Below, piece after piece: positions 1 to 36,056 of a stretch of 36,901 bases of DNA; positions within the stretch are counted from its first letter, which is position 1; each line of letters begins with the position of its first letter. The notes beneath the pieces were generated by a model that worked only from the letters and a program-made list of their open reading frames with translations, did no database searches and was not told the origin of the DNA. Made by a program: the position numbers and the translations under genes. The stretch comes from Chitinispirillales bacterium. GTDB lineage: Bacteria; Fibrobacterota; Chitinivibrionia; Chitinivibrionales; Chitinispirillaceae. The stretch is taken from assembly GCA_031286265.1 (NCBI GenBank), contig JAITUP010000093.1:1-36901 (forward strand), given 5' to 3'.

Positions 1-672
1 TATTTGGTTCGGCCATAGATGCTTTCCATAGTCTCTGTATCCATAGCCTTCGTTTCATTTGTACCGCCATTTTTATTACGGTATTCTGCTTATTTTTTTC
101 TATAAGCGACGGTATCGCCAGAAATTTGTATCTCAGCGTTGCCAATCGATGCTTGACCTTTTCGGTCATAACCACCTGTCGAAACAAACTCATCAGATTA
201 TAAGCGATCGTCATCAAGACTAGTGTGGCTTCCGTCCCGTCGAAACTGGTTTGATTCATTTTATCTAAACCATAATCATATTTTAGTTCTTTGATCCTGT
301 TTTCGCTGTTTGCGCGCCCACGGTACAGTCGCCATATTTCTGCAGCACCGAGCGGAAGATTTGTAATGTAGCAACTATATCGATAGCCGTTGTAGTCGAT
401 TTCATCGCCAAACAGGCTCAACTGCTTGCCGGTAGCGCAAGGACGTTCTTGGATTTTTTGGCGCACAGCAATCATCCGACGCGAATGTTCCCACTTCTCC
501 CCTTGATAAGAAAATTCACAAATATCTATACCGCCGTCTATTCGCAACCAGTTATTTTCAGAGGCAATACGCCGCTGCACGGGATAACGCATTGGAACCG
601 CCATGATATAATGTACTGGCTCTTCGCGTTCCTCTAAATAATCAAATGTGGTATTACTATAAAAACCACAAA
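1..672 (-). pseudogene. IS1380-like transposase, C-terminal part only; N-terminal half missing and C-terminus runs off the window's left edge
   Basis: Minus-strand open frame reads ...CGFYSNTTFDYLEEREEPVHYIMAVPMRYPVQRRIASENNWLRIDGGIDICEFSYQGEKWEHSRRMIAVRQKIQERP...LYRGRANSENRIKELKYDYGLDKMNQTSFDGTEATLVLMTIAYNLMSLFRQ..., which resembles the C-terminal half of IS1380-type DDE transposases. No start codon and no N-terminal domain upstream. Confidence 0.75.
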
Positions 673-3724: not shown

Positions 3725-3768
3725 AATATCTTGAACATGAAAGGCAGTGTGCTATGGAGACAGAAAAA
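3725..3768 (+). repeat. 44-bp direct repeat, copy 1 (contains the MNT start codon)
   Basis: aatatcttgaacatgaaaggcagtgtgctatggagacagaaaaa; 40/44 identical to 4361-4404. Confidence 0.9.
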
Positions 3769-4110: not shown

Positions 4111-4444
4111 TCAATACATAGGATTGGCAGAAAGATGTTTAGCTTCGGCACGGCTAATGCTGGAAGATGGCGATTTAAGAGGTTCGGTAAACCGTTCTTA
4201 CTACTGCGTTTTCAATTGCGCTCAAGCACTGCTTGCACATGAGGGTGTCGGGTACAGTAAGCACAAGGCAGTAATCTCGCATTTTAGGAAAAACTACGTA
4301 CACACGGGCATATTTGGCGCAAGATTTTCTAAAATCATAGGTGACCTATTTGATGATCGCAATATCTCGAACATGAAAGGCAATGCGCTATGGAGACGGA
4401 AAAAATCAAAGGCAGGGACAAGCGATAGATGCACAAAGCGATAG
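4085..4444 (+). CDS. HEPN domain protein, probably C-terminally truncated
   Basis: LAERCLASARLMLEDGDLRGSVNRSYYCVFNCAQALLAHEG is HEPN-like. Overlaps the MNT gene by 26 bp. C-terminus reads into the second direct-repeat copy. Confidence 0.78.
   Translation: MDQIVDLADQYIGLAERCLASARLMLEDGDLRGSVNRSYYCVFNCAQALLAHEGVGYSKHKAVISHFRKNYVHTGIFGARFSKIIGDLFDDRNISNMKGNALWRRKKSKAGTSDRCTKR
4361..4404 (+). repeat. 44-bp direct repeat, copy 2 (vestigial MNT start)
   Basis: aatatctcgaacatgaaaggcaatgcgctatggagacggaaaaa; 40/44 identical to 3725-3768. Confidence 0.9.
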
Positions 4445-7003: not shown

Positions 7004-7379
7004 AAACGCTTCCTTTATTATATTTTGAAAGACAAAAATCAAAGGCTTTACAATAAGGTAAGGCCTCGCTGATACGGGAAAAACGGGAAAAATACGGTAC
7101 GACGCGAATGGCACAACGCAAAAGACAGAGGATAGGGGCGATTTTTGGCTATTATCGGGATAAATCTCTATCTTGGTATATAAAATAATTATCGGCACAG
7201 GCACCGTCAAGAAAAAAATATTAAAAAAATTTTGCCATTTTCTATATGGTACAATACTATATTTAGTATTCGTACCATGCCGCCGTGCGCACACATTATA
7301 ATGGGTACCTTCAAAAAACCTCGCCGTGTTACAGAGGGTATGAAAACAAAGGGGCCCCATTGTGTGGATTACGCGTCAT

Positions 7380-7448
7380 ATCCCCCGTATTTGGCTTTAG
7401 AATGCGGGTTTTGGGGTAGTTCGGTTGCAGGTGGGGCGTTACGGGGGC
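7380..7448 (+). repeat. Dispersed intergenic repeat (CCCCCGTATTTGG block), copy 1
   Basis: atcccccgtatttggctttagaatgcgggttttggggtagttcggttgcaggtggggcgttacggggg; similar to 35104-35174. Confidence 0.75.
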
Positions 7449-7529
7449 TGTCTCAAAAGCCGTCATTGCGGGCTTGACCCGCAATGGACGGGGTGGGCTG
7501 GGCGCTCGCAATGACGGCTTTTGAGACAG
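7448..7529. repeat. Perfect 23-bp inverted repeat with nested hairpin (MITE/REP-like)
   Basis: ctgtctcaaaagccgtcattgcg (7448-7470) and its exact reverse complement cgcaatgacggcttttgagacag (7507-7529). Confidence 0.85.
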
Positions 7530-7585
7530 TCCCGTCCTCGAAAAAAATCTAAAAAGATGTCGCTAGAACGGAGGTTTTACGCAAT

Positions 7586-9743: not shown

Positions 9744-10150
9744 TGCACAGCGTATCGGAGTCGTCAAGTAATTTTACGGAAACAATACGGCGATTCGGCG
9801 TCGCCGACGCTATCATCATAGCAATGATGACATGCGCCGTATTCCTTACGTCAGACATACTTAGATCGGGACGGCCGGACATCGTTACGATATTCAGACA
9901 AAATACCGTTATCGCCTCATATCCGCTCAATATCGACGCGATTATTAATATCAACGGCAAAATCGGCTCGCTTGATGTTGAGATAAAAGGTGAGACGGTG
10001 AAGATACTTCACGCAAACTGCCCTCGCCAAATTTGCAGGCGGTCAGGCGCAATTAGCGGCCGACGCGGGCAGCTTGTCTGTGCGCCAAACAATGTGTTGA
10101 TTCAGATTAAACCCCAAAAAACAGATGATGTCGATGCCGTCGCTTATTGA
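9743..10150 (+). CDS. NusG domain II-containing membrane-anchored protein
   Basis: One TM segment, then INGKIGSLDVEIKGETVKILHANCPRQICRRSGAISGRRGQLVCAPNNVLIQI, typical of NusG_II proteins. Confidence 0.75.
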   Translation: MHSVSESSSNFTETIRRFGVADAIIIAMMTCAVFLTSDILRSGRPDIVTIFRQNTVIASYPLNIDAIININGKIGSLDVEIKGETVKILHANCPRQICRRSGAISGRRGQLVCAPNNVLIQIKPQKTDDVDAVAY

Positions 10151-11327
10151 AAAAAATAATAACGCCGTCCTGCAAAAAACAATATGGTTGATGGCCGCGG
10201 TAGCGCTGAACGCCATTGAACTCGCCATCCCGAAGCTGCCGTTTTTCCCGTGGCTTAAACCCGGGCTTGCTAACGCCATTACCGTGATATGGATTATAAA
10301 ATATGGATTTACGGACGCGATTCTTTATACAGCGCTGCGAGTTTGGATTTCCGGTTTTTATTTCGGATTTTCGCTGTTTACGTTTTCGCTCGGCATTACC
10401 GGAGGATTATTGTCTACGATGATAATGTCCGTATTGTGGATGACGCTCGGTAAACGTAAATTGATGGGGACGGTAGGGATGGCGATAATTGGAGCGTTGT
10501 TTCATAATGCCGGGCAGCTTGCCGTTGTGTATTTTATGATGTCCGGTAATATTGCTATTTTTGGGCAAATCCCGTTTATGCTCGCCGCGTCGATATTATT
10601 TGGAGGCATCGTTGGAATGCTTGCTCCCGCGGCGGCTAAACTTTTTGATTGCGATAGGACCGCAATAAAACCTTGCGCCAAAAAAAACGAATCACCTCGC
10701 TTCGCTTACGATGGCAATCATTTTTACAGCCCGGAATTAACGGCAAAATTCATCGACAAAACCGTCATCATGCTAACATTCACCGTGTCGATTTCGTTGA
10801 TGTTTATTAACAATATCTATATCTTGATAGTCGCCGCTATTACATTTTCGTCAATATCATTAGTGCTGAATCCACAAAAAACAAGCGTCGTTTTCTATCC
10901 GATAAAATTTTATATGCTATTCATTTTCATAGCGTTCACCCATATATTTTTTTCTTATGGAACTTATATCGACACGCTCCCTTTCATAACCAAGGAAGGC
11001 TTATTCTCATTTATCAATCAATCCCTGCGTCTCTGGTGCTGGCTTCAAACCGCGCACATTTTCAAAAAATTCAAATTTAGCGAAATTTTCATATCAATCC
11101 TGAATAAATCTTTCCCAAATAAAAAAGAAACCATCAGAGCAGGAATGATAACGCTCGAACACTTTCCTGAAATCATGCGGTTCGCCAAACCAAATAAAAA
11201 GAAAGCAATCACTATGTTGCTGTTCAAGCCGAAAATATTTTTGACAAATTACATAAACGACGTCAGCCACAGAATTGAGGCGCTGCTGCTATCGAAACAT
11301 CAATTAAACTCAAATTTTCCGTTATGA
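10125..11327 (+). CDS. Gx transporter / heptaprenyl diphosphate synthase component I-like domain fused to an EcfT/CbiQ-like membrane domain
   Basis: N-terminus LNAIELAIPKLPFFPWLKPGLANAITVIWIIKYG... is Gx-transporter-like. The C-terminal ~200 aa is a second multi-TM region with EcfT-like layout. Confidence 0.65.
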   Translation: MMSMPSLIEKNNNAVLQKTIWLMAAVALNAIELAIPKLPFFPWLKPGLANAITVIWIIKYGFTDAILYTALRVWISGFYFGFSLFTFSLGITGGLLSTMIMSVLWMTLGKRKLMGTVGMAIIGALFHNAGQLAVVYFMMSGNIAIFGQIPFMLAASILFGGIVGMLAPAAAKLFDCDRTAIKPCAKKNESPRFAYDGNHFYSPELTAKFIDKTVIMLTFTVSISLMFINNIYILIVAAITFSSISLVLNPQKTSVVFYPIKFYMLFIFIAFTHIFFSYGTYIDTLPFITKEGLFSFINQSLRLWCWLQTAHIFKKFKFSEIFISILNKSFPNKKETIRAGMITLEHFPEIMRFAKPNKKKAITMLLFKPKIFLTNYINDVSHRIEALLLSKHQLNSNFPL

Positions 11328-11339
11328 TGCTTTTTTAAA

Positions 11340-11440
11340 ACCTTTTTTTAAAAAAGGTCCGCCTCACCCCTTGTCATAACTCGATAATGTTTGGGACAAC
11401 AAAGGGTCGTTTTAACGGATAGGGCGATGTTCATTCGGGC
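11340..11440 (+). repeat. Dispersed intergenic repeat (17-mer family), copy A
   Basis: Contains GTTTGGGACAACAAAGG at 11389-11405, followed by ...GGATAGGGCGATGTTCATTC. Confidence 0.85.
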
Positions 11441-11728
11441 GTTGTAGCGATGTTTTGTTTTTGATTTTAACATTTTTACCCTGATAGTATGCCCACATGT
11501 CCCCCGTAAGCGGTCGCCGCTTATGGGGGACCGCAGGGGGGCTATCGTATCGGGGCGTTACGGATGATAAACTATGCCCGAAGTGAGTGAGGATGTACAG
11601 TGTACATCCTGCCGTTTGATTGAAAGAGGGAACTTATGAGCCCCGTCCACAAAAGATTTTAAAGACTTTGATTTTGATATTACAAGCCAATAGATCGCCT
11701 TACGGCGCAACATTTAATTGGTGGTCTA

Positions 11729-13045: not shown

Positions 13046-13184
13046 TATCTCTACAGGTCCGTTTTTCAGATTTCTTCCCAAAATTACAGGCCGATAGGGC
13101 CACATATTGAAAATTAAATTATCGGCGGTGATATTTGATAATATTTTTATTTTTTTAACTCAAATTGTCCGTTAGGACACAGAA

Positions 13185-13310
13185 TGTTTTTTTTAAAATC
13201 TTTTTTAAAAACCATTTTTTTAAAATGTGTCACCTAACCCCCTGAGACCGCTCCGTAATGTTTGGGACAACAAAGGATCGTTTGAGCGGAAAGGGCGATG
13301 TTCATTCTTG
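13185..13310 (+). repeat. Dispersed intergenic repeat (17-mer family), copy B
   Basis: GTTTGGGACAACAAAGG at 13260-13276 with the flanking TTTTTTTAAAATGTGTCACCTAACCCC block. Confidence 0.85.
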
Positions 13311-13562: not shown

Positions 13563-15758
13563 TTAACGCACGCCAATAATAACCGACACCCGCTCACGAC
13601 TTCCATCTGCGGTGGCGACCGTTCCACGCAATAAATACGTCCCGGCAGAAACCGGGCGGCCGTCTGTACTCGTCAAATCCCACGAACCGACAACGCGGGA
13701 TTGGATGAAATCCGTCCCCACATCGGCTATTCCGATTCTGTTGACGACATTGCCGAACGCGTCGAAAATTGTCAATACAGCATCGTTTACACGCCGCCCT
13801 TGACGGTAAAAATTGACAACGCCCGATAATCTGTCAACCGGGTTGGGACCAACGGTGAACTCACCCGATGATTGATTAGCGGGCGCGACGATTACTGCTG
13901 CCTCGTCCGGTTCGACGACGGGTATCTCGCGGTCGATGTCGGCTATGGAAACGTTGCCAATATTTATCGTTATTTCTGGCTGGGACAGCGTGTAATTGAA
14001 GGCATCAGGCCCTGTCAACACAATATTCGTGGTTACTGGTTGGATGCCAATCTCCGCTGAAGCGGCAATGCCGCTTCCGAGTGTAAAACCTACGTTATCG
14101 CCGTCTACTACGCCAACGAGCGTGCCACCGGAGAGCGTGACAGATGTTGTACCATCAGGGTCGCGGCCTATGGCGGTTACACCTGTGATGGTGATAACCC
14201 TTGGGATGATGTTCGCGGTAACATCCATGCTTGAAGGCTGAGACGTGAGAATATAGTTAGTGGCATCTGTGCCGGCAAGCGAAAAATCAGTGAACGCTAC
14301 AATAGGCTTGCCGGTTCCGACATTCATATCCGCAAACAATGCTATACCGCTAACTACAGTAACATCGTCTCCACTAACCATTCCATTGATTATTGCTTCG
14401 CCCCTAATATCAGTAGATGTCGTACCATCGTATTCCTTGTTAGCGGCGGCTACGCCAATGATGGTAACGGGGCGTGGGATAATAGTAACGCTTACGTCAA
14501 AACTTTGTGGCGTAATCCAGTCTATTCCAGCATTGCCACCTGTATTTGATGTTACAGAGGCTGTTACAGTAGCCGTGTATGTTCCGGGAGTGAGTCTTAA
14601 TCGAGGCGTTACCGTAAAAGTAGCGCTCTCGCCTAAGGCGACGGAAGGAATTGATGATTGATTAATGGTAAAAGCGGAGGTGTCACCGCTGGATAAAGCA
14701 ATGGATAAGGTACCTAACGGATAATTGGTATTGGCTAAAGTTACTGTTAGCGGCGGTGTATCACCGTATTGAACGGAATCGAAAGCATGTGTTTCCGATT
14801 GGGAAAGGGATAGGCCATGATACGGGACAAACGTAATCTGGCTTCTCCAGCTGGCCAGATTCGCGTCTCTTACGGTTGTGTTCTCATCAAAGCCGTAAAC
14901 TATTAGCGATGGAGACGCGTTAGATAAATGTAAGTCATCGAATGGAAATTCTCCCCTCGGGCCCATCTCAAATATTATTGGCTCCTGTTTCAAAAAATCC
15001 ATGCGATTGAGGTTCCTAATAGTTGAGAACGCAAAGGGTTGGACTGTTGTTACAGTACTTGGAATAATTAAAGTGCTTAATTTAGTAACATTGTTAAACG
15101 AGCGATTCCGGATTGTTCTTACACTACTTGGAATGATATAGGACAAATCGGCTCTGCCTTGTGGATATTGCACTAAAATCGTCCGGTCTTTGTTAAACAA
15201 TACGCCGTCAACTGAACTCATGTATGGGTTTGTCGGCGATACCTCTATGGAAATTAATTCATGGCTATTAGTAAACACAGTATTTGTTGATGGAAGTAAA
15301 AGGCCATCACCGATAGTCACGTGAGTCACATTAGAGCCGGCAAGTACAGTGTTAGCCACAAATGTCACGCTGTGAGGAATATCTATCGAAGTCAAATTCG
15401 TCCCACTAAACGCATAACCCAAAATACGATTCACACCTTCAGGAATGGTAATGGAAGTTAGATTATGGAGTTGACTAAATGCTCCTACGCCGATTGTTGT
15501 TATACCGCTTCCAACAGCCACAGTGTAAATCTGATCACTAAATGCCACCCATGGCCCACCACCCGTACTATTAAAATCCCTCATATCCCCAGTTCCCCTG
15601 ATAGTAAGGGTCTCTCCGTCCAACGTGGCAGTCACATTAGCGCTATCCGCATCAATACCAATATTCCACGTCTGCGCGTTCACAACCCCGGCAATCATCG
15701 CCACGGCAAAAACCGCCATGGTGATTTTGTTTGTCGTTTTTGCCTTGCTTTTTTTCAT
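13563..15758 (-). CDS. Secreted BspA-type leucine-rich repeat / YDG(MBG)-repeat protein with FlgD-like or T9SS-like C-terminal domain
   Basis: Signal peptide ending in NAQTWNIG, LRR_5-like SITIPEGVNRILGYAFSG repeats, NKEYDGTTS and PDGTTSVTLSGG repeats, C-terminal FTVGPNPVDRLSGVVNFYRQGRRV...AGTYLLRGTV. Confidence 0.85.
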   Translation of the reverse strand: MKKSKAKTTNKITMAVFAVAMIAGVVNAQTWNIGIDADSANVTATLDGETLTIRGTGDMRDFNSTGGGPWVAFSDQIYTVAVGSGITTIGVGAFSQLHNLTSITIPEGVNRILGYAFSGTNLTSIDIPHSVTFVANTVLAGSNVTHVTIGDGLLLPSTNTVFTNSHELISIEVSPTNPYMSSVDGVLFNKDRTILVQYPQGRADLSYIIPSSVRTIRNRSFNNVTKLSTLIIPSTVTTVQPFAFSTIRNLNRMDFLKQEPIIFEMGPRGEFPFDDLHLSNASPSLIVYGFDENTTVRDANLASWRSQITFVPYHGLSLSQSETHAFDSVQYGDTPPLTVTLANTNYPLGTLSIALSSGDTSAFTINQSSIPSVALGESATFTVTPRLRLTPGTYTATVTASVTSNTGGNAGIDWITPQSFDVSVTIIPRPVTIIGVAAANKEYDGTTSTDIRGEAIINGMVSGDDVTVVSGIALFADMNVGTGKPIVAFTDFSLAGTDATNYILTSQPSSMDVTANIIPRVITITGVTAIGRDPDGTTSVTLSGGTLVGVVDGDNVGFTLGSGIAASAEIGIQPVTTNIVLTGPDAFNYTLSQPEITINIGNVSIADIDREIPVVEPDEAAVIVAPANQSSGEFTVGPNPVDRLSGVVNFYRQGRRVNDAVLTIFDAFGNVVNRIGIADVGTDFIQSRVVGSWDLTSTDGRPVSAGTYLLRGTVATADGSRERVSVIIGVR

Positions 15759-15821: not shown

Positions 15822-17654
15822 TTACCGAATCCCCAAAACCATCGACACCCGCTCACGATTTCCGTCTGCGGTGGCGACCGTTCCGCGCAATAAATACGTC
15901 CCGGCAGAAACCGGGCGGCCACCCGTGTCCGTCAAGTCCCACGAACCGACAACGCGGGATTGGGTGAAATCCGTCCCCACATCGGCTATTCCGATTCTGT
16001 TGACGACATTGCCAAACGCGTCGAAAATTGTCAATACAGCCTCATTTACACGCCGCCCCTGACGATAAAAATTGACAACGCCCGATAATCTGTCAATCGG
16101 ATTTGGACCGACGGTGAATTCACCCGATGATTGATTAGCGGGCACAACGATTACTGCTGCCTCATCAGGATCGACGACGGGTATCTCGCGGTCGATGTCG
16201 GCTATGGATGTGGTGCCAATGTTTACCCTCACGTTCCCAGGTTGCGCCAGTTGATAATTGGGAGCATCAGAACCTATCAACACAATATTTGTTGTTACCG
16301 GTTTGTCGGTGCCGGCATCCGGTGAAGCCATAGTGCCATTTCCAAGCACAAAACCAACAAGATCACCGCTTATTACGCCAACAAGCGTACCACCGGTGAG
16401 ACCAACCGATGTCGTGCCATCGGCATTACGATCTACGGCGCTTACACCTGTGATAGTGATGACCCTCGGATTAATGTTTGCGATAACGCTTGAAGGTTGA
16501 GACGAAAGCGTGTAGTTATTAACATCAAGACCGGCAAGCGAAAAGCCGCTGAATGTAACGGTTTTATCGTTTCCGGCACTTGGATCGGCAAACGACGCTG
16601 TGCCCTCAACCATACTAATGTTATCCCCATCAATTATTCCGTTGATTAGTGCCGAACCTCTAGGCAAAGCGGTCGTTGTACCGTCATACTCCTTGTTGAA
16701 AGCGGTCAGACCGGTAATGGTAACAAGACGCGGGTTTACCGTAATGTTCACGTTGAAAGTTCGCGGATTAATCCAGTCTGTTTCACCGCCTGCGCTCGGC
16801 GCTACTGATACCGTTATAGTAGCCGTGTATGTTCCCGGGGTGAGCCCTGATTGGGGCGTTATTCTAAAAGAAGCATTCTCGCCTAAGCCAACGCTGGATA
16901 GTGCCGACAGATCAAGCGTGAAAGCCGATGCGTTAGCGCCGGACAGGACAACTGATAAAACACTCAATGGATAGTTGGTATTTCTTAATGTTGCGGAAGT
17001 CCACTGCGGCGTGTTACCGTATCGTATAGAATTGTAAGTATACTCTCCAGAGCGGGAAAGGGATAGACCATGATATGGGACGAAGGTGATATCTGGATAT
17101 GTGCTTATGGTTGTATTTTCAGAAAAACCGTAGACTCTCAGCGACGGGGATGTGTACCCAAATACACCCAAACCAATTGATTCCATCGGTTCCCGCCTCA
17201 AAAAATCCACACGGTCTAGACTCGTAGAACCGTCAAACACCCCATCATCAATTCTTGCCACGCTTTTGGGAATGATTATGGAAGTCAGACTAATGCTACT
17301 CGCAAACGCATAATTTTCGATAGATGTTACAGTGTTAGGAATGGTTACAGAGATTAGATTTTCGAGGTTAGCAAATGCCCAATCTCCGATAGATGTCACA
17401 CCGTCCTTAATAATCACAATCTCAATGTCGCGCATAACGTTGTAGTTGTTACCCCATGGTGGGCCTCTATCATATCCCATATCTCCGGTTCCCTCAATAA
17501 TAAGCGTCTTTCCGATCAACGTTGCGGTTACGTCTGTTCGATCCGCATTAACACCAATATTCCACGTCTGCGCACTCACCCCCCCGGCAACCACCGCCAC
17601 AGCAAAAGCGGCCATGGCAATTTTCTTTTTAACTCCCATTTTTACTGATTTCAT
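15822..17654 (-). CDS. Paralogous secreted LRR/YDG-repeat protein with the same C-terminal domain
   Basis: Same architecture as 13563..15758. Start placed at 17654 (MKSVKMGVKKKIAMAAFAVAVVAGGVSAQTWNIG). Confidence 0.85.
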   Translation of the reverse strand: MKSVKMGVKKKIAMAAFAVAVVAGGVSAQTWNIGVNADRTDVTATLIGKTLIIEGTGDMGYDRGPPWGNNYNVMRDIEIVIIKDGVTSIGDWAFANLENLISVTIPNTVTSIENYAFASSISLTSIIIPKSVARIDDGVFDGSTSLDRVDFLRREPMESIGLGVFGYTSPSLRVYGFSENTTISTYPDITFVPYHGLSLSRSGEYTYNSIRYGNTPQWTSATLRNTNYPLSVLSVVLSGANASAFTLDLSALSSVGLGENASFRITPQSGLTPGTYTATITVSVAPSAGGETDWINPRTFNVNITVNPRLVTITGLTAFNKEYDGTTTALPRGSALINGIIDGDNISMVEGTASFADPSAGNDKTVTFSGFSLAGLDVNNYTLSSQPSSVIANINPRVITITGVSAVDRNADGTTSVGLTGGTLVGVISGDLVGFVLGNGTMASPDAGTDKPVTTNIVLIGSDAPNYQLAQPGNVRVNIGTTSIADIDREIPVVDPDEAAVIVVPANQSSGEFTVGPNPIDRLSGVVNFYRQGRRVNEAVLTIFDAFGNVVNRIGIADVGTDFTQSRVVGSWDLTDTGGRPVSAGTYLLRGTVATADGNRERVSMVLGIR

Positions 17655-18268
17655 ACAATTTCCCCTCCTCAAAAAGGATTTAAAGTTATTTTGAACCGCC
17701 GACATTATATCCGGCGGCGTTGATAAACACGCAACGCAGGAGGCGCGGCGTGAGAATTACAACGCAAAGGACACGACAAATCGGTACAACGCAATAGGGT
17801 ACAAAAAAATTGGTACAACGCAAAGGTACAACGCAAGGAATCGCGGGGACGGCCATGTAGGCCACCCACTTCTTACCTGCCTTCAAATAAAGCGAACAAT
17901 GCAATAAAAACCAAAGCTACCTATCAGCACACCTGTTTTAGCTAATACGACGTAAAAACGTCACCCCAGTACTAATATAATACAAAAATGAATCCGTACC
18001 AAATTTTTTTTGATTTTTTTAAAAATATTTTTTTTCCCCGTATCCGGCGACAACTTTTTTACGCGGAAACAGAAGCTAAATTCGCCGAAGCGCGGGCGCA
18101 AATAGAAAAATACAAAAAAGACACCCCTTCCGCCGGACGTGACGACTTGAAATTCACCGCGCTGGTGTTTAAAGGAAAAGGAGATGTGAGCGTGTGCCTT
18201 CAATGATGTCGCTCCACAGTATTTTTTTTCACTTCACGCCCCTCCCGTAATGTATATATGGTTATACG

Positions 18269-25050: not shown

Positions 25051-25078
25051 GTTGGAATTACGGGTATCGTGATTTTTT

Positions 25079-25103
25079 GTAAAGGGCGCGGTTTACCGCG
25101 CCC
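25079..25103 (+). terminator. pgk terminator hairpin; copy 1 of a 25-bp exact direct repeat
   Basis: gtaaagggcgcggtttaccgcgccc; stem gggcgcgg/ccgcgccc, with tttcctctttttt downstream. Confidence 0.7.
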
Positions 25104-25794: not shown

Positions 25795-25955
25795 TTGGAA
25801 TTCTTATCTCGGCGGTCACCAATTCTCAGGCTTATCATAAGTGCTTTAGGCGCCCACAGGGCATATCAGAACTTTCCGCTGTCGGCAGGAATTATCGGCC
25901 GGTATCGACCCCCGCCGACAATTAGTAAAGGGCGCGGTTTACCGCGCCCTTTTTG
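25795..25955 (+). ncRNA. Candidate structured RNA with its own terminator (unknown class)
   Basis: Non-coding interval. Terminal pairing aatt...tcggcgg (25799-25815) with ccgccga...aatt (25912-25923). Immediately followed by a GC hairpin plus TTTTT. Confidence 0.3.
25925..25954 (+). terminator. Strong Rho-independent terminator; copy 2 of the 25-bp direct repeat
   Basis: gtaaagggcgcggtttaccgcgcccttttt. Confidence 0.75.
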
Positions 25956-32954: not shown

Positions 32955-34790
32955 CTAACTATCGACAAAACCTCTGTGCGACGCTACATCATATATCCGG
33001 CGATATTTTCCAATCGCCACATCCCACGTAAAATCACGCAGGCTCTCCATGCCGTTCAGCATCATCTGACCGTATTCCTCACAGTTGGCAAATACATCGG
33101 CGGCATTTTCCATAGCGATACACGCCTCGTCGACCATCGAGCGATATAGCGGGACATCCATGCGCTCCCCCACCGGGGCGTCGAGGATGCGCTTCCACTC
33201 ACCGCAGTCGATATCGTCGCCGCTTGCGCTCTCGTGATACAAAAATCCGGTGGACCCGTCGGCCGGCTCGGCCCTTACCTGCACCAGCAACCCGCCGGTC
33301 GCCCGCGCTATAACCGGAGTGCCGTGCATAAAACCCTCGGTAGCCGCGCCAAACGGCTCATAGAAAGACGGCATCAACAAAAAAGATGAACCGAGAACAA
33401 CGGAGGCATAATCTTCAGAAGCTATCCTGAATGGCCAAATAACAATATCACCGGGGCGCTCCGAGGCAATACCCCTGAAAAAAGCCAACTCCTCCGCATG
33501 CTTCGCCCCCTCGGCGCTGCTGGGGCAAAATATCAACCCAATCTTACCGGGAGGAAGTTTTTTGATCGCCTGAAATATAACATCAAACCCTTTTTGCATG
33601 AGATCAAGACGCCCGGACATGAAAAATATCGGCCGATCACAGTCAATTGTTTTCGAGGCGTCACCACTACCATCACTCCACAAATCCAACTTGCCAACAA
33701 CTTCCGGCCGATCCATCGCCTTCACTATTTCGAGCATCTTCTCCCTAAACCGCGTTTTCTGCTTCAGCAACGCGGTAAAATCACCCTGACGAGCACGCGA
33801 TAGCGCCGTGTACGTATACCGCAGATAGGGACGCCCGAACATGCCGTTTTCTATACCGACAGGCGGGTTTGCGGTGAACATATCCTGCAAGTGATTCGTG
33901 AACACGCTACGCTGCAACGGATCGGTGCGCAGTTCATCCGCAAACGGCGCGCTGACCGTCGTGAGCGGTCCGTTGAGCAACGGAATCGCGCACTGCAAAA
34001 CAGTGTCGCCGCGGATGCCGCCCCCGCCAGGCCGCTCGCGATCCGCCCCCGCAAAAAAATACTGCTCCTTCTTATCAACACTAACCCCGCTGTCAAACGA
34101 ATTATGCAGAGTAAGCACAGTCCGCGCATTCTCAAGAACCCCGTCAAGCACAGCCCGCTTGGAAGTGATCGCGATTGGCGCGGTCTCCCAGTCGTGCGCG
34201 TGGAATAATATGTCCCTCGTAAAACCAAGCCGCGCAAGCACGTGAGGCACAACGGCACAAAACGCGAGCGCGTCCTCAAGAAGATCGGCGCCGTCGGCAT
34301 AGGAATATGGATTCTGATCAGCCGTAAACCTGCCGTCTATACCTATAAAATACGCGCTGACCGGCATGTCGTCGTTGCGATAGCAACAATACGTCACCTC
34401 ATGAGGACAGGCAGCTTCCGGCGACACATGAATTGTCTCGCTATCAATAATCAGTTCCAAAGCCCCGCCGGCAACCGCCTCCCGGACTTTAGGGATATTG
34501 ACATAATGCGGTGTCATCAGAATTACGTCTTCGCCATATTTCTTCAAAAACGTCGGCAAAAACCGCATCACCGCCGCCAACCCCCCAAGCTGCGCAAACC
34601 TGTTTTCAAACGTCAAAGACACAATTTTGCGTTTCTCAGCCGAAAATCCGCGCTCCCGCTCATTAAGCGCGTCAAGCCCTTCCCGCCCAAACGCGTCAAG
34701 GAACCCCACATCAAGAAGCTGCCACGCATCCACTTTAGCGGCAAAAGAGGCGTCATAGGCGGTATATGGATTACGGTGTTGGATTTTCAT
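32955..34790 (-). CDS. glgA: Glycogen/starch synthase (GT5-type)
   Basis: ENRFAQLGGLAAVMRFLPTFLKKYGEDVILMTPHY, GIENGMFG, LLMPSFYEPFGAATEGFMHGTPVIARATGGL. Confidence 0.85.
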   Translation of the reverse strand: MKIQHRNPYTAYDASFAAKVDAWQLLDVGFLDAFGREGLDALNERERGFSAEKRKIVSLTFENRFAQLGGLAAVMRFLPTFLKKYGEDVILMTPHYVNIPKVREAVAGGALELIIDSETIHVSPEAACPHEVTYCCYRNDDMPVSAYFIGIDGRFTADQNPYSYADGADLLEDALAFCAVVPHVLARLGFTRDILFHAHDWETAPIAITSKRAVLDGVLENARTVLTLHNSFDSGVSVDKKEQYFFAGADRERPGGGGIRGDTVLQCAIPLLNGPLTTVSAPFADELRTDPLQRSVFTNHLQDMFTANPPVGIENGMFGRPYLRYTYTALSRARQGDFTALLKQKTRFREKMLEIVKAMDRPEVVGKLDLWSDGSGDASKTIDCDRPIFFMSGRLDLMQKGFDVIFQAIKKLPPGKIGLIFCPSSAEGAKHAEELAFFRGIASERPGDIVIWPFRIASEDYASVVLGSSFLLMPSFYEPFGAATEGFMHGTPVIARATGGLLVQVRAEPADGSTGFLYHESASGDDIDCGEWKRILDAPVGERMDVPLYRSMVDEACIAMENAADVFANCEEYGQMMLNGMESLRDFTWDVAIGKYRRIYDVASHRGFVDS

Positions 34791-34844
34791 AATATTAAAA
34801 TATAATCACTGCCGTCTCATAAGATTTTACCTTTTTTTTAAAAA

Positions 34845-34955
34845 ACCCTTTTTTTAAAATGTGTCACCTAACTCCCCGATACCATTCCGTAAAGTTTGGG
34901 ACAACAAAGGCTCGTATGAATGGATGGGGCGATGTTCATTCTTGCTTGGTTGGGG
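34845..34955 (+). repeat. Dispersed intergenic repeat (17-mer family), copy C
   Basis: GTTTGGGACAACAAAGG at 34894-34910. Confidence 0.87.
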
Positions 34956-34969
34956 TGCGATGTTTTTTT

Positions 34970-35085
34970 AAAAATCTTTTTTTTAAAATGTGTCGCCTAA
35001 CCTCCTGATACCGCTCCGTAATGTTTGGGACAACAAAGGATCATTTGAATGGATAGGGCGATGTCCTTCCATGCGCGGTTGGGAT
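34970..35085 (+). repeat. Dispersed intergenic repeat (17-mer family), copy D, tandem to C
   Basis: GTTTGGGACAACAAAGG at 35023-35039, 129 bp after copy C. Confidence 0.87.
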
Positions 35086-35103
35086 GCAAGGATTACAAAC
35101 CAC

Positions 35104-35174
35104 ATCCCCCGTATTTGGTTTTAGGATATGGGTTTTAGCGTAGGTCGGTTTTAGGTGGGGGGCGTTGCGGGGGT
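35104..35174 (+). repeat. Dispersed intergenic repeat (CCCCCGTATTTGG block), copy 2
   Basis: atcccccgtatttggttttaggatatgggttttagcgtaggtcggttttaggtggggggcgttgcggggg; similar to 7380-7448. Confidence 0.75.
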
Positions 35175-35245
35175 TCTCCCCCGCTCTGGGGGTAGCGGAA
35201 TAAAAATATTGCCAAAGGCAATATTTTTATGGAGCGTGGGGGAGA
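35175..35245. repeat. Long composite hairpin
   Basis: Inner perfect 14-bp arms ataaaaatattgcc-aaa-ggcaatatttttat (35200-35230). Outer tctcccccgctc / gagcgtgggggaga. Confidence 0.85.
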
Positions 35246-35264
35246 CTTCCCCCCTTAAAATATG

Positions 35265-35319
35265 TTTTGACTTTGAATTTGACTTTGATTTTGATTTTGA
35301 TTTTGACTTTGATTTTAAC
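35265..35319 (+). repeat. Low-complexity 6-bp repeat tract (GACTTT/GATTTT)n
   Basis: ttttgactttgaatttgactttgattttgattttgattttgactttgattttaac. Confidence 0.85.
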
Positions 35320-35384
35320 GTTTGTGTTTTAGAGTCGTTTGATTGAAAGAGGAAACTTCGAGCCCCGTCACCAAAGCTATGGAG

Positions 35385-36056
35385 TCACCCCACCCGCCCG
35401 CACTCCACGCCAAGCGGGCATCCCTCACAAAGCGCCTTTTTCCGACAATGCTTCGCGCCGTTGATAACAATAAGCGCATGGAAATTGTTATATACCTCAA
35501 CACTACGAGGAAGATTAGCCTCAAAATAAGCCTTAACTACCGCATACCCTTTACCGGCATCAATAGGATAGCGATCACAAAATCGGACGGTGTAGGCATC
35601 CACAACAAAAGTCGGAAAGTCGAAAGCATAGAGGAGAATCGAATCGGCAGTCTCCGGCCCCACGCCCTTTGTCGCGAGTAATTCACCGCGCAATTTTTCA
35701 AGCGGCTCACGCCGAACGGCCGCCGCATCAAAATCATACTTGGCAAACCACTCCGTCACCGTTTTTAAGTACACAGCTTTCTGATTAAAATATCCCGCAG
35801 GCCGGATCACCGCCGCCAAGTCAGGCAAATCCGCGCTTAGTATCGCTTCAGGAGACAGAGGTATGGATTGAGGGGACAGAGACAAATCATGAGCGTCGCC
35901 AAAATTAGCAATAGCTTTTTCCACATTCCCCCACGCGGTATTCTGCGTCAAGACAGCGCCGACGACAACTTCATACGGCGTCTTCGCGGGCCACCAGCGT
36001 GGATGGCCGTGGTGGGATAGAAGGCGATGATAGATGGATTCTATCGTGCTAATCAT
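35385..36056 (-). CDS. Endonuclease III-like HhH-GPD DNA glycosylase with FeS cluster
   Basis: VLTQNTAWGNVEKAI, LLATKGVGPETADSILLYAFDFPTFVVDAYTVRF, C-terminal CRKKALCEGCPLGVEC. Confidence 0.9.
   Translation of the reverse strand: MISTIESIYHRLLSHHGHPRWWPAKTPYEVVVGAVLTQNTAWGNVEKAIANFGDAHDLSLSPQSIPLSPEAILSADLPDLAAVIRPAGYFNQKAVYLKTVTEWFAKYDFDAAAVRREPLEKLRGELLATKGVGPETADSILLYAFDFPTFVVDAYTVRFCDRYPIDAGKGYAVVKAYFEANLPRSVEVYNNFHALIVINGAKHCRKKALCEGCPLGVECGRVG

Follow-up and report, generated by a model that had tools for sequence, protein, structure and literature searches.

A high-copy intergenic repeat with a near-invariant core in a Chitinispirillales genome, probably the internal module of MITE-like elements

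The window analysed here is a stretch of 36,901 nucleotides (contig JAITUP010000093.1 of a Chitinispirillales bacterium), in which a 17-mer recurs within a similar intergenic setting, and the question is what kind of element it marks: a transcribed element, a regulator-binding repeat or a non-autonomous mobile element, the three options of the original prediction. A scan of the window bore out the exact 17-mer at all four positions, on the + strand and outside genes (Table 1), and gave no further match at up to three mismatches (0.09 in shuffled sequences). Genome-wide, 176 sites were found at up to two mismatches in 2.64 Mb, 89 on the forward and 87 on the reverse strand, whereas a reversed-pattern control yielded none. 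The single strand is thus a property of the window copies only, and the count of four holds for the window only. The original prediction was to fall if the copies were restricted to these four sites or belonged to a known repeat family; neither turned out to be the case, and the search returned a family of about 176 copies. Genome-scale statistics cover 1.34 of the 2.64 Mb, in contigs picked partly because they hold copies. None of the 162 copies within these 1.34 Mb lies in a gene as predicted by an ORF script. The ORF at 10125-11327, however, takes its last codons from the left end of copy 1, which derives from the repeat.

Table 1. Positions of modules, terminal repeats, tails and the transposase fragment in the window.
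Feature	Position	Strand	Remark
IS1380-type transposase fragment	182..664	-	cut by contig edge; NF033539 E=4.8e-29, below curated cut-off; PF13701
Left terminal repeat type B (IS1380-like), copy 1	11307..11326	+	3 mismatches to AACCCAAATTTTCCATTAGG
105-bp module copy 1	11331..11436	+	alternative left half ATAACTCGATAAT; core 11389-11405
Right tail of another repeat family, type tA	11437..11640	+	GATTTTA..CCCCCGTAAGCGG..; right edge approximate
Left terminal repeat type B, copy 2	13157..13176	+	3 mismatches
105-bp module copy 2	13202..13307	+	core 13260-13276
Left terminal repeat type A (IS4-family-like)	34807..34831	+	tandem pair; CACTGCCGTCTCATAAGATTTTACC
105-bp module copy 3	34836..34941	+	core 34894-34910
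105-bp module copy 4	34965..35070	+	tandem with copy 3 (129 bp); core 35023-35039
Right tail type tD	35090..35360	+	GGATTACAAACCACATCCCCCGTA..; right edge approximate

Alignment of the copies on the core delimits a module of 105 bp, from -58 to +47 relative to the core, which is made up of a T/A tract, TGTGTCGCC or GGTCCGCC, CTAACCCCCTGATACCGCTCCGTAAT, the core, and NTCGTNTGAAYGG...GGGCGATGTTCATTC. Copy 1, with CCCCTTGTCATAACTCGATAAT, departs from the layout originally described in having a different left half; two types of left half occur, the alternative one with ..GCCATAACTCGATAAT in place of CTAACCCCCTGATACCGCTCCGTAAT. Regarding the 136 clusters of modules, 111 are single, 24 double and one triple, i.e., the end modules enclose varying numbers of internal ones as they do in BOX and BrickBuilt elements, and the spacing of tandem modules is mostly 127-130 bp. 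In one copy (L113:477-526) the central ~45 bp are inverted in place relative to their flanks.

The sequence upstream of the module contains blocks that recur from copy to copy and have sharply defined outer edges. In 76 of the 136 clusters a left terminal repeat lies no more than 150 bp to the left of the core, compared with about one expected. End A (CACTGCCGTCTCATAAG, up to four mismatches) is present in 28 clusters (0.3 expected from random stretches) and end B (AACCCAAATTTTCCATTAGG, up to six mismatches) in 51 (about one from random stretches), both at near-fixed distances from the core, mostly -95 to -101 or -84 to -87 for end A and -79 to -92 for end B. End A is close to both ends (CACTAGCGTCCCATAG and CACTACCATCCCATAG) of a 1166-bp element on another contig of the genome (L063, 10340-11505), which encodes a transposase of the IS4 family with 351 residues (NF033592, 232.6 bits, cut-off 115). 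End B agrees at 20 of 20 positions with the end next to an IS1380-type transposase (L099:11316). The window opens within an IS1380-type element, the end of which, as read on other contigs, is terminal repeat B. Between the module itself and either the IS4 element or the IS1380 fragment, no similarity beyond chance was seen. It is these left ends, which are the terminal inverted repeats of transposons from two families resident in this genome, that speak for the non-autonomous mobile element among the three options. The end modules have no fixed orientation relative to genes, and a role as gene-oriented promoters or terminators was rejected on this account.

On the right-hand side, a terminal repeat is present within 900 bp in 16 of the 136 clusters, on both sides in nine and on the right only in seven, a scarcity partly due to the many contigs that end there. 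Commoner than terminal repeats in this position are other recurrent blocks, the starts of which lie at constant offsets between +53 and +75; many contigs stop there, which suggests repeats left unassembled. In most cases the right end is gone or another intergenic repeat has taken its place. Complete elements with end A on both sides span 171-212 bp, and one of 171 bp (L098:209-379) lies between perfect 7-bp duplications (AATCAAA). Apart from this case, a strict scan of 18 paired ends gave a duplication-like flank at only one (L110, 5 bp, ATAAT).

Several further repeats were seen in these surroundings. A tD-type tail without module is found at 7366-7436, beside a 30-bp inverted repeat (GGGGCTGTCTCAAAAGCC.., 7444-7533) whose family has multiple copies in the genome. 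At seven loci (L048, L085, L093, L111, L114, L135 and L159) an A end on the right-hand side is succeeded by one and the same flank of ~25 bp and by the start of a similar ORF, which suggests a duplicated gene beside the element. Another repeat, with ends TTAACCCGGCGG..CCGCCGGGTTAA and apparently flanked by TA, inserts into or truncates modules (L051, L066, L075, L057, L058 and L084); a DDE_3 (IS630-type) transposase was not found in the genome. Elsewhere in the window, a 44-bp direct repeat with 91% identity (3725-3768 and 4361-4404) has its copies 636 bp apart, and the short palindromic repeat GGGCGCGGTTTACCGCGCCC occurs in near-identical form at 25076-25103 and 25922-25949.

Taken as a whole, the repeat is probably the internal module of non-autonomous, modular MITE-like elements which were moved in trans and later shuffled at T/A tracts and truncated. 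It has the short, non-coding and dispersed copies of a MITE (105-bp modules at 176 sites, none in predicted genes), terminal inverted repeats (on the left in 76 of 136 clusters and on both sides in nine, with most right ends missing) and ends in common with autonomous elements of the same genome (IS4-family, L063; IS1380-type, L099). A complete element would comprise an inverted terminal repeat (A or B), at least one T/A tract of ~14 bp, one to three modules of 105 bp placed 127-130 bp apart, a further T/A tract and an inverted terminal repeat. Since ends A and B resemble the ends of IS4-family and IS1380-type elements, the resident transposases of these two types probably moved the repeats in trans.

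The mobile-element reading alone does not account for the invariant core. Over positions -34 to +47 in 127 copies the changes per site are strongly over-dispersed (dispersion 24), and GGGACAACAAAGG (core positions 4-16, 13 bases) carries eight changes in these copies against 168 expected, with a mean of 0.6 changes per site in the core against 5.2 at other low-variation sites. The 17-mer described as invariant is so in GGGACAACAAAGG, whereas GTTT varies slightly (T at +3 in 87%). In copies found by the right or left flank alone, the core is non-consensus at 0.6-0.8%; the invariance is therefore not caused by a search based on the core. Outside the core the sites vary freely and are almost unlinked: beyond 8 bp the mean r2 is 0.011-0.017 (1/N = 0.008), and tandem neighbours are 0.83 identical as compared with 0.85 for random pairs. 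The near-absence of linkage points to recombination among copies or to long independent evolution under constraint. Because linkage is missing and ends are mixed, recombination at T/A tracts and among copies may well have exchanged ends and scrambled alleles. An extreme constraint on 13 bases amid such sites is an oddity that lends itself to testing.

Some constraint would have to keep GGGACAACAAAGG near-invariant, and the simplest would be contact with a protein, for mobilisation or for the host. The regulator-binding repeat of the original prediction might hold: the core suggests that something reads it, but the repeat has no consistent orientation to genes. It is conceivable, though unlikely, that transposon-derived carriers spread GGGACAACAAAGG as a functional site of protein binding, which selection now maintains at well over 100 loci as a species-specific network. 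Quite unlikely, too, is a DNA site maintained by the host, with a chromosome-organising or regulatory protein binding the core and the flanking transposon ends being incidental. The rate of change in the core, its persistence in copies recovered without it and the strictly intergenic position are what such a site would lead one to expect; the near-fixed spacing to transposon ends is not, gene orientation is inconsistent, and the absence of the repeat from all congeners sets it apart from ordinary host sites. The sign of the contig GC skew agrees with the orientation of the element in 40 of 85 cases, and a replication-polarised (KOPS-like) motif was rejected on these grounds. Relative to neighbouring genes the orientation is mixed and follows no rule, and a tie to one neighbouring gene family was rejected as well, the neighbours being ordinary multi-copy families of which none is dominant. 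Two tandemly duplicated proteins with BspA-type LRR and YDG domains are encoded at 13563-15758 and 15822-17705.

A non-coding block conserved at fixed spacing would be in keeping with a transcribed RNA, either small or structured, and the BrickBuilt elements of Porphyromonas gingivalis, which are MITE-like, are able to drive transcription (PMC4596501). However, the Rfam scan gave no match, the folding of the module region was not beyond that of shuffled sequences (mean z -0.3 and -1.0 on the two strands), and pairwise association, and with it long-range covariation among copies, was absent beyond 8 bp. A consensus scan of 34780-35400 likewise gave no sigma-70-like promoter or terminator. With neither a covarying conserved fold nor an Rfam match, the transcribed element finds no support here, and an RNA function is regarded as very improbable. 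The same folding values mean that the module region lacks the strongly base-paired structure which is typical of MITEs but does not define them. A coding function was rejected for want of a three-base periodicity among the variable positions and because none of the copies falls within a predicted gene.

The module was not found in seven congeneric species, and the 17-mer is absent from the other 167 genomes of the phylum that were searched, except for one lone match with two mismatches. The plasmid and phage collections searched did not contain the repeat; seven 17-mer matches in viral contigs, none with the flanks, were put down to chance. The two genes that lie around 34.8-35.4 kb do not neighbour each other in congeners, where gene order at that site is not conserved. 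A scan of named genome contigs placed the module in two contigs (L195 and L196) filed under the Bacteroidales genome Spi319_bin22, a bin presumably of termite-gut origin. One protein per contig was compared with congeners of the window's genome, and the best matches share 61% and 68% identity, respectively, so that both contigs probably come from the window's organism or a very close one and were misbinned. That the family itself is an artefact of assembly or binning, a repeat collapsed or spread over contigs, might be thought of because many copies lie close to contig ends, 94 of the 162 lacking a downstream gene, in a genome of 278 contigs. It is nevertheless hardly credible: the copies are mutually diverged (mean identity 0.85), they lie inside contigs with different neighbours, and the module recurs in the two separately binned contigs. 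The repeat probably also explains why the assembly is in 278 pieces and why its contigs are open to misbinning.

Among known systems, the IS4Sa subgroup comprises elements of 1150-1750 bp with ends CA------T and duplications of 8-10 bp (PMC2266710). The resident IS in L063, with 1166 bp, CA------T ends and an IS4 transposase, falls within these printed ranges, whereas the repeats carry the ends only, without transposase, and the one clear duplication is 7 bp instead of 8-10 bp. REP/BIME repeats with their RAYT are likewise intergenic and of high copy number, and one Y1 transposase gene is present in the genome; in contrast to them, the module has no folding palindrome and its ends belong to DDE transposons, so that an identity with REP/BIME was rejected.

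Judged by description and not by sequence, the family may be classed as modular and MITE-like, in kind like BrickBuilt and BOX. BrickBuilt elements (PMC4596501) are also intergenic, with repeats in tandem that are enclosed by a leader and a tail, ends like those of resident IS elements (IS5 family in BrickBuilt) and few two-ended copies; their target duplications are irregular, as those of the present family may be too. They differ in an internal unit of 23 bp, as opposed to the ~129-bp spacing observed here, in having 19 copies against ~176, and in one end type against two. The BOX elements of Streptococcus (PMC3049150) share with the present family a composite build, in which end modules enclose internal ones in varying number, and the restriction to a species, and in S. 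suis the same internal module lies between different end modules, as it does here. BOX RNA, however, folds tightly (PMC3049150), which the present module does not do beyond shuffled sequences, and the ends of the present family, unlike those of BOX, were traced to resident transposons. The repeat thus offers a natural case of a species-restricted expansion in which one internal module sits between interchangeable ends of two resident transposon families.
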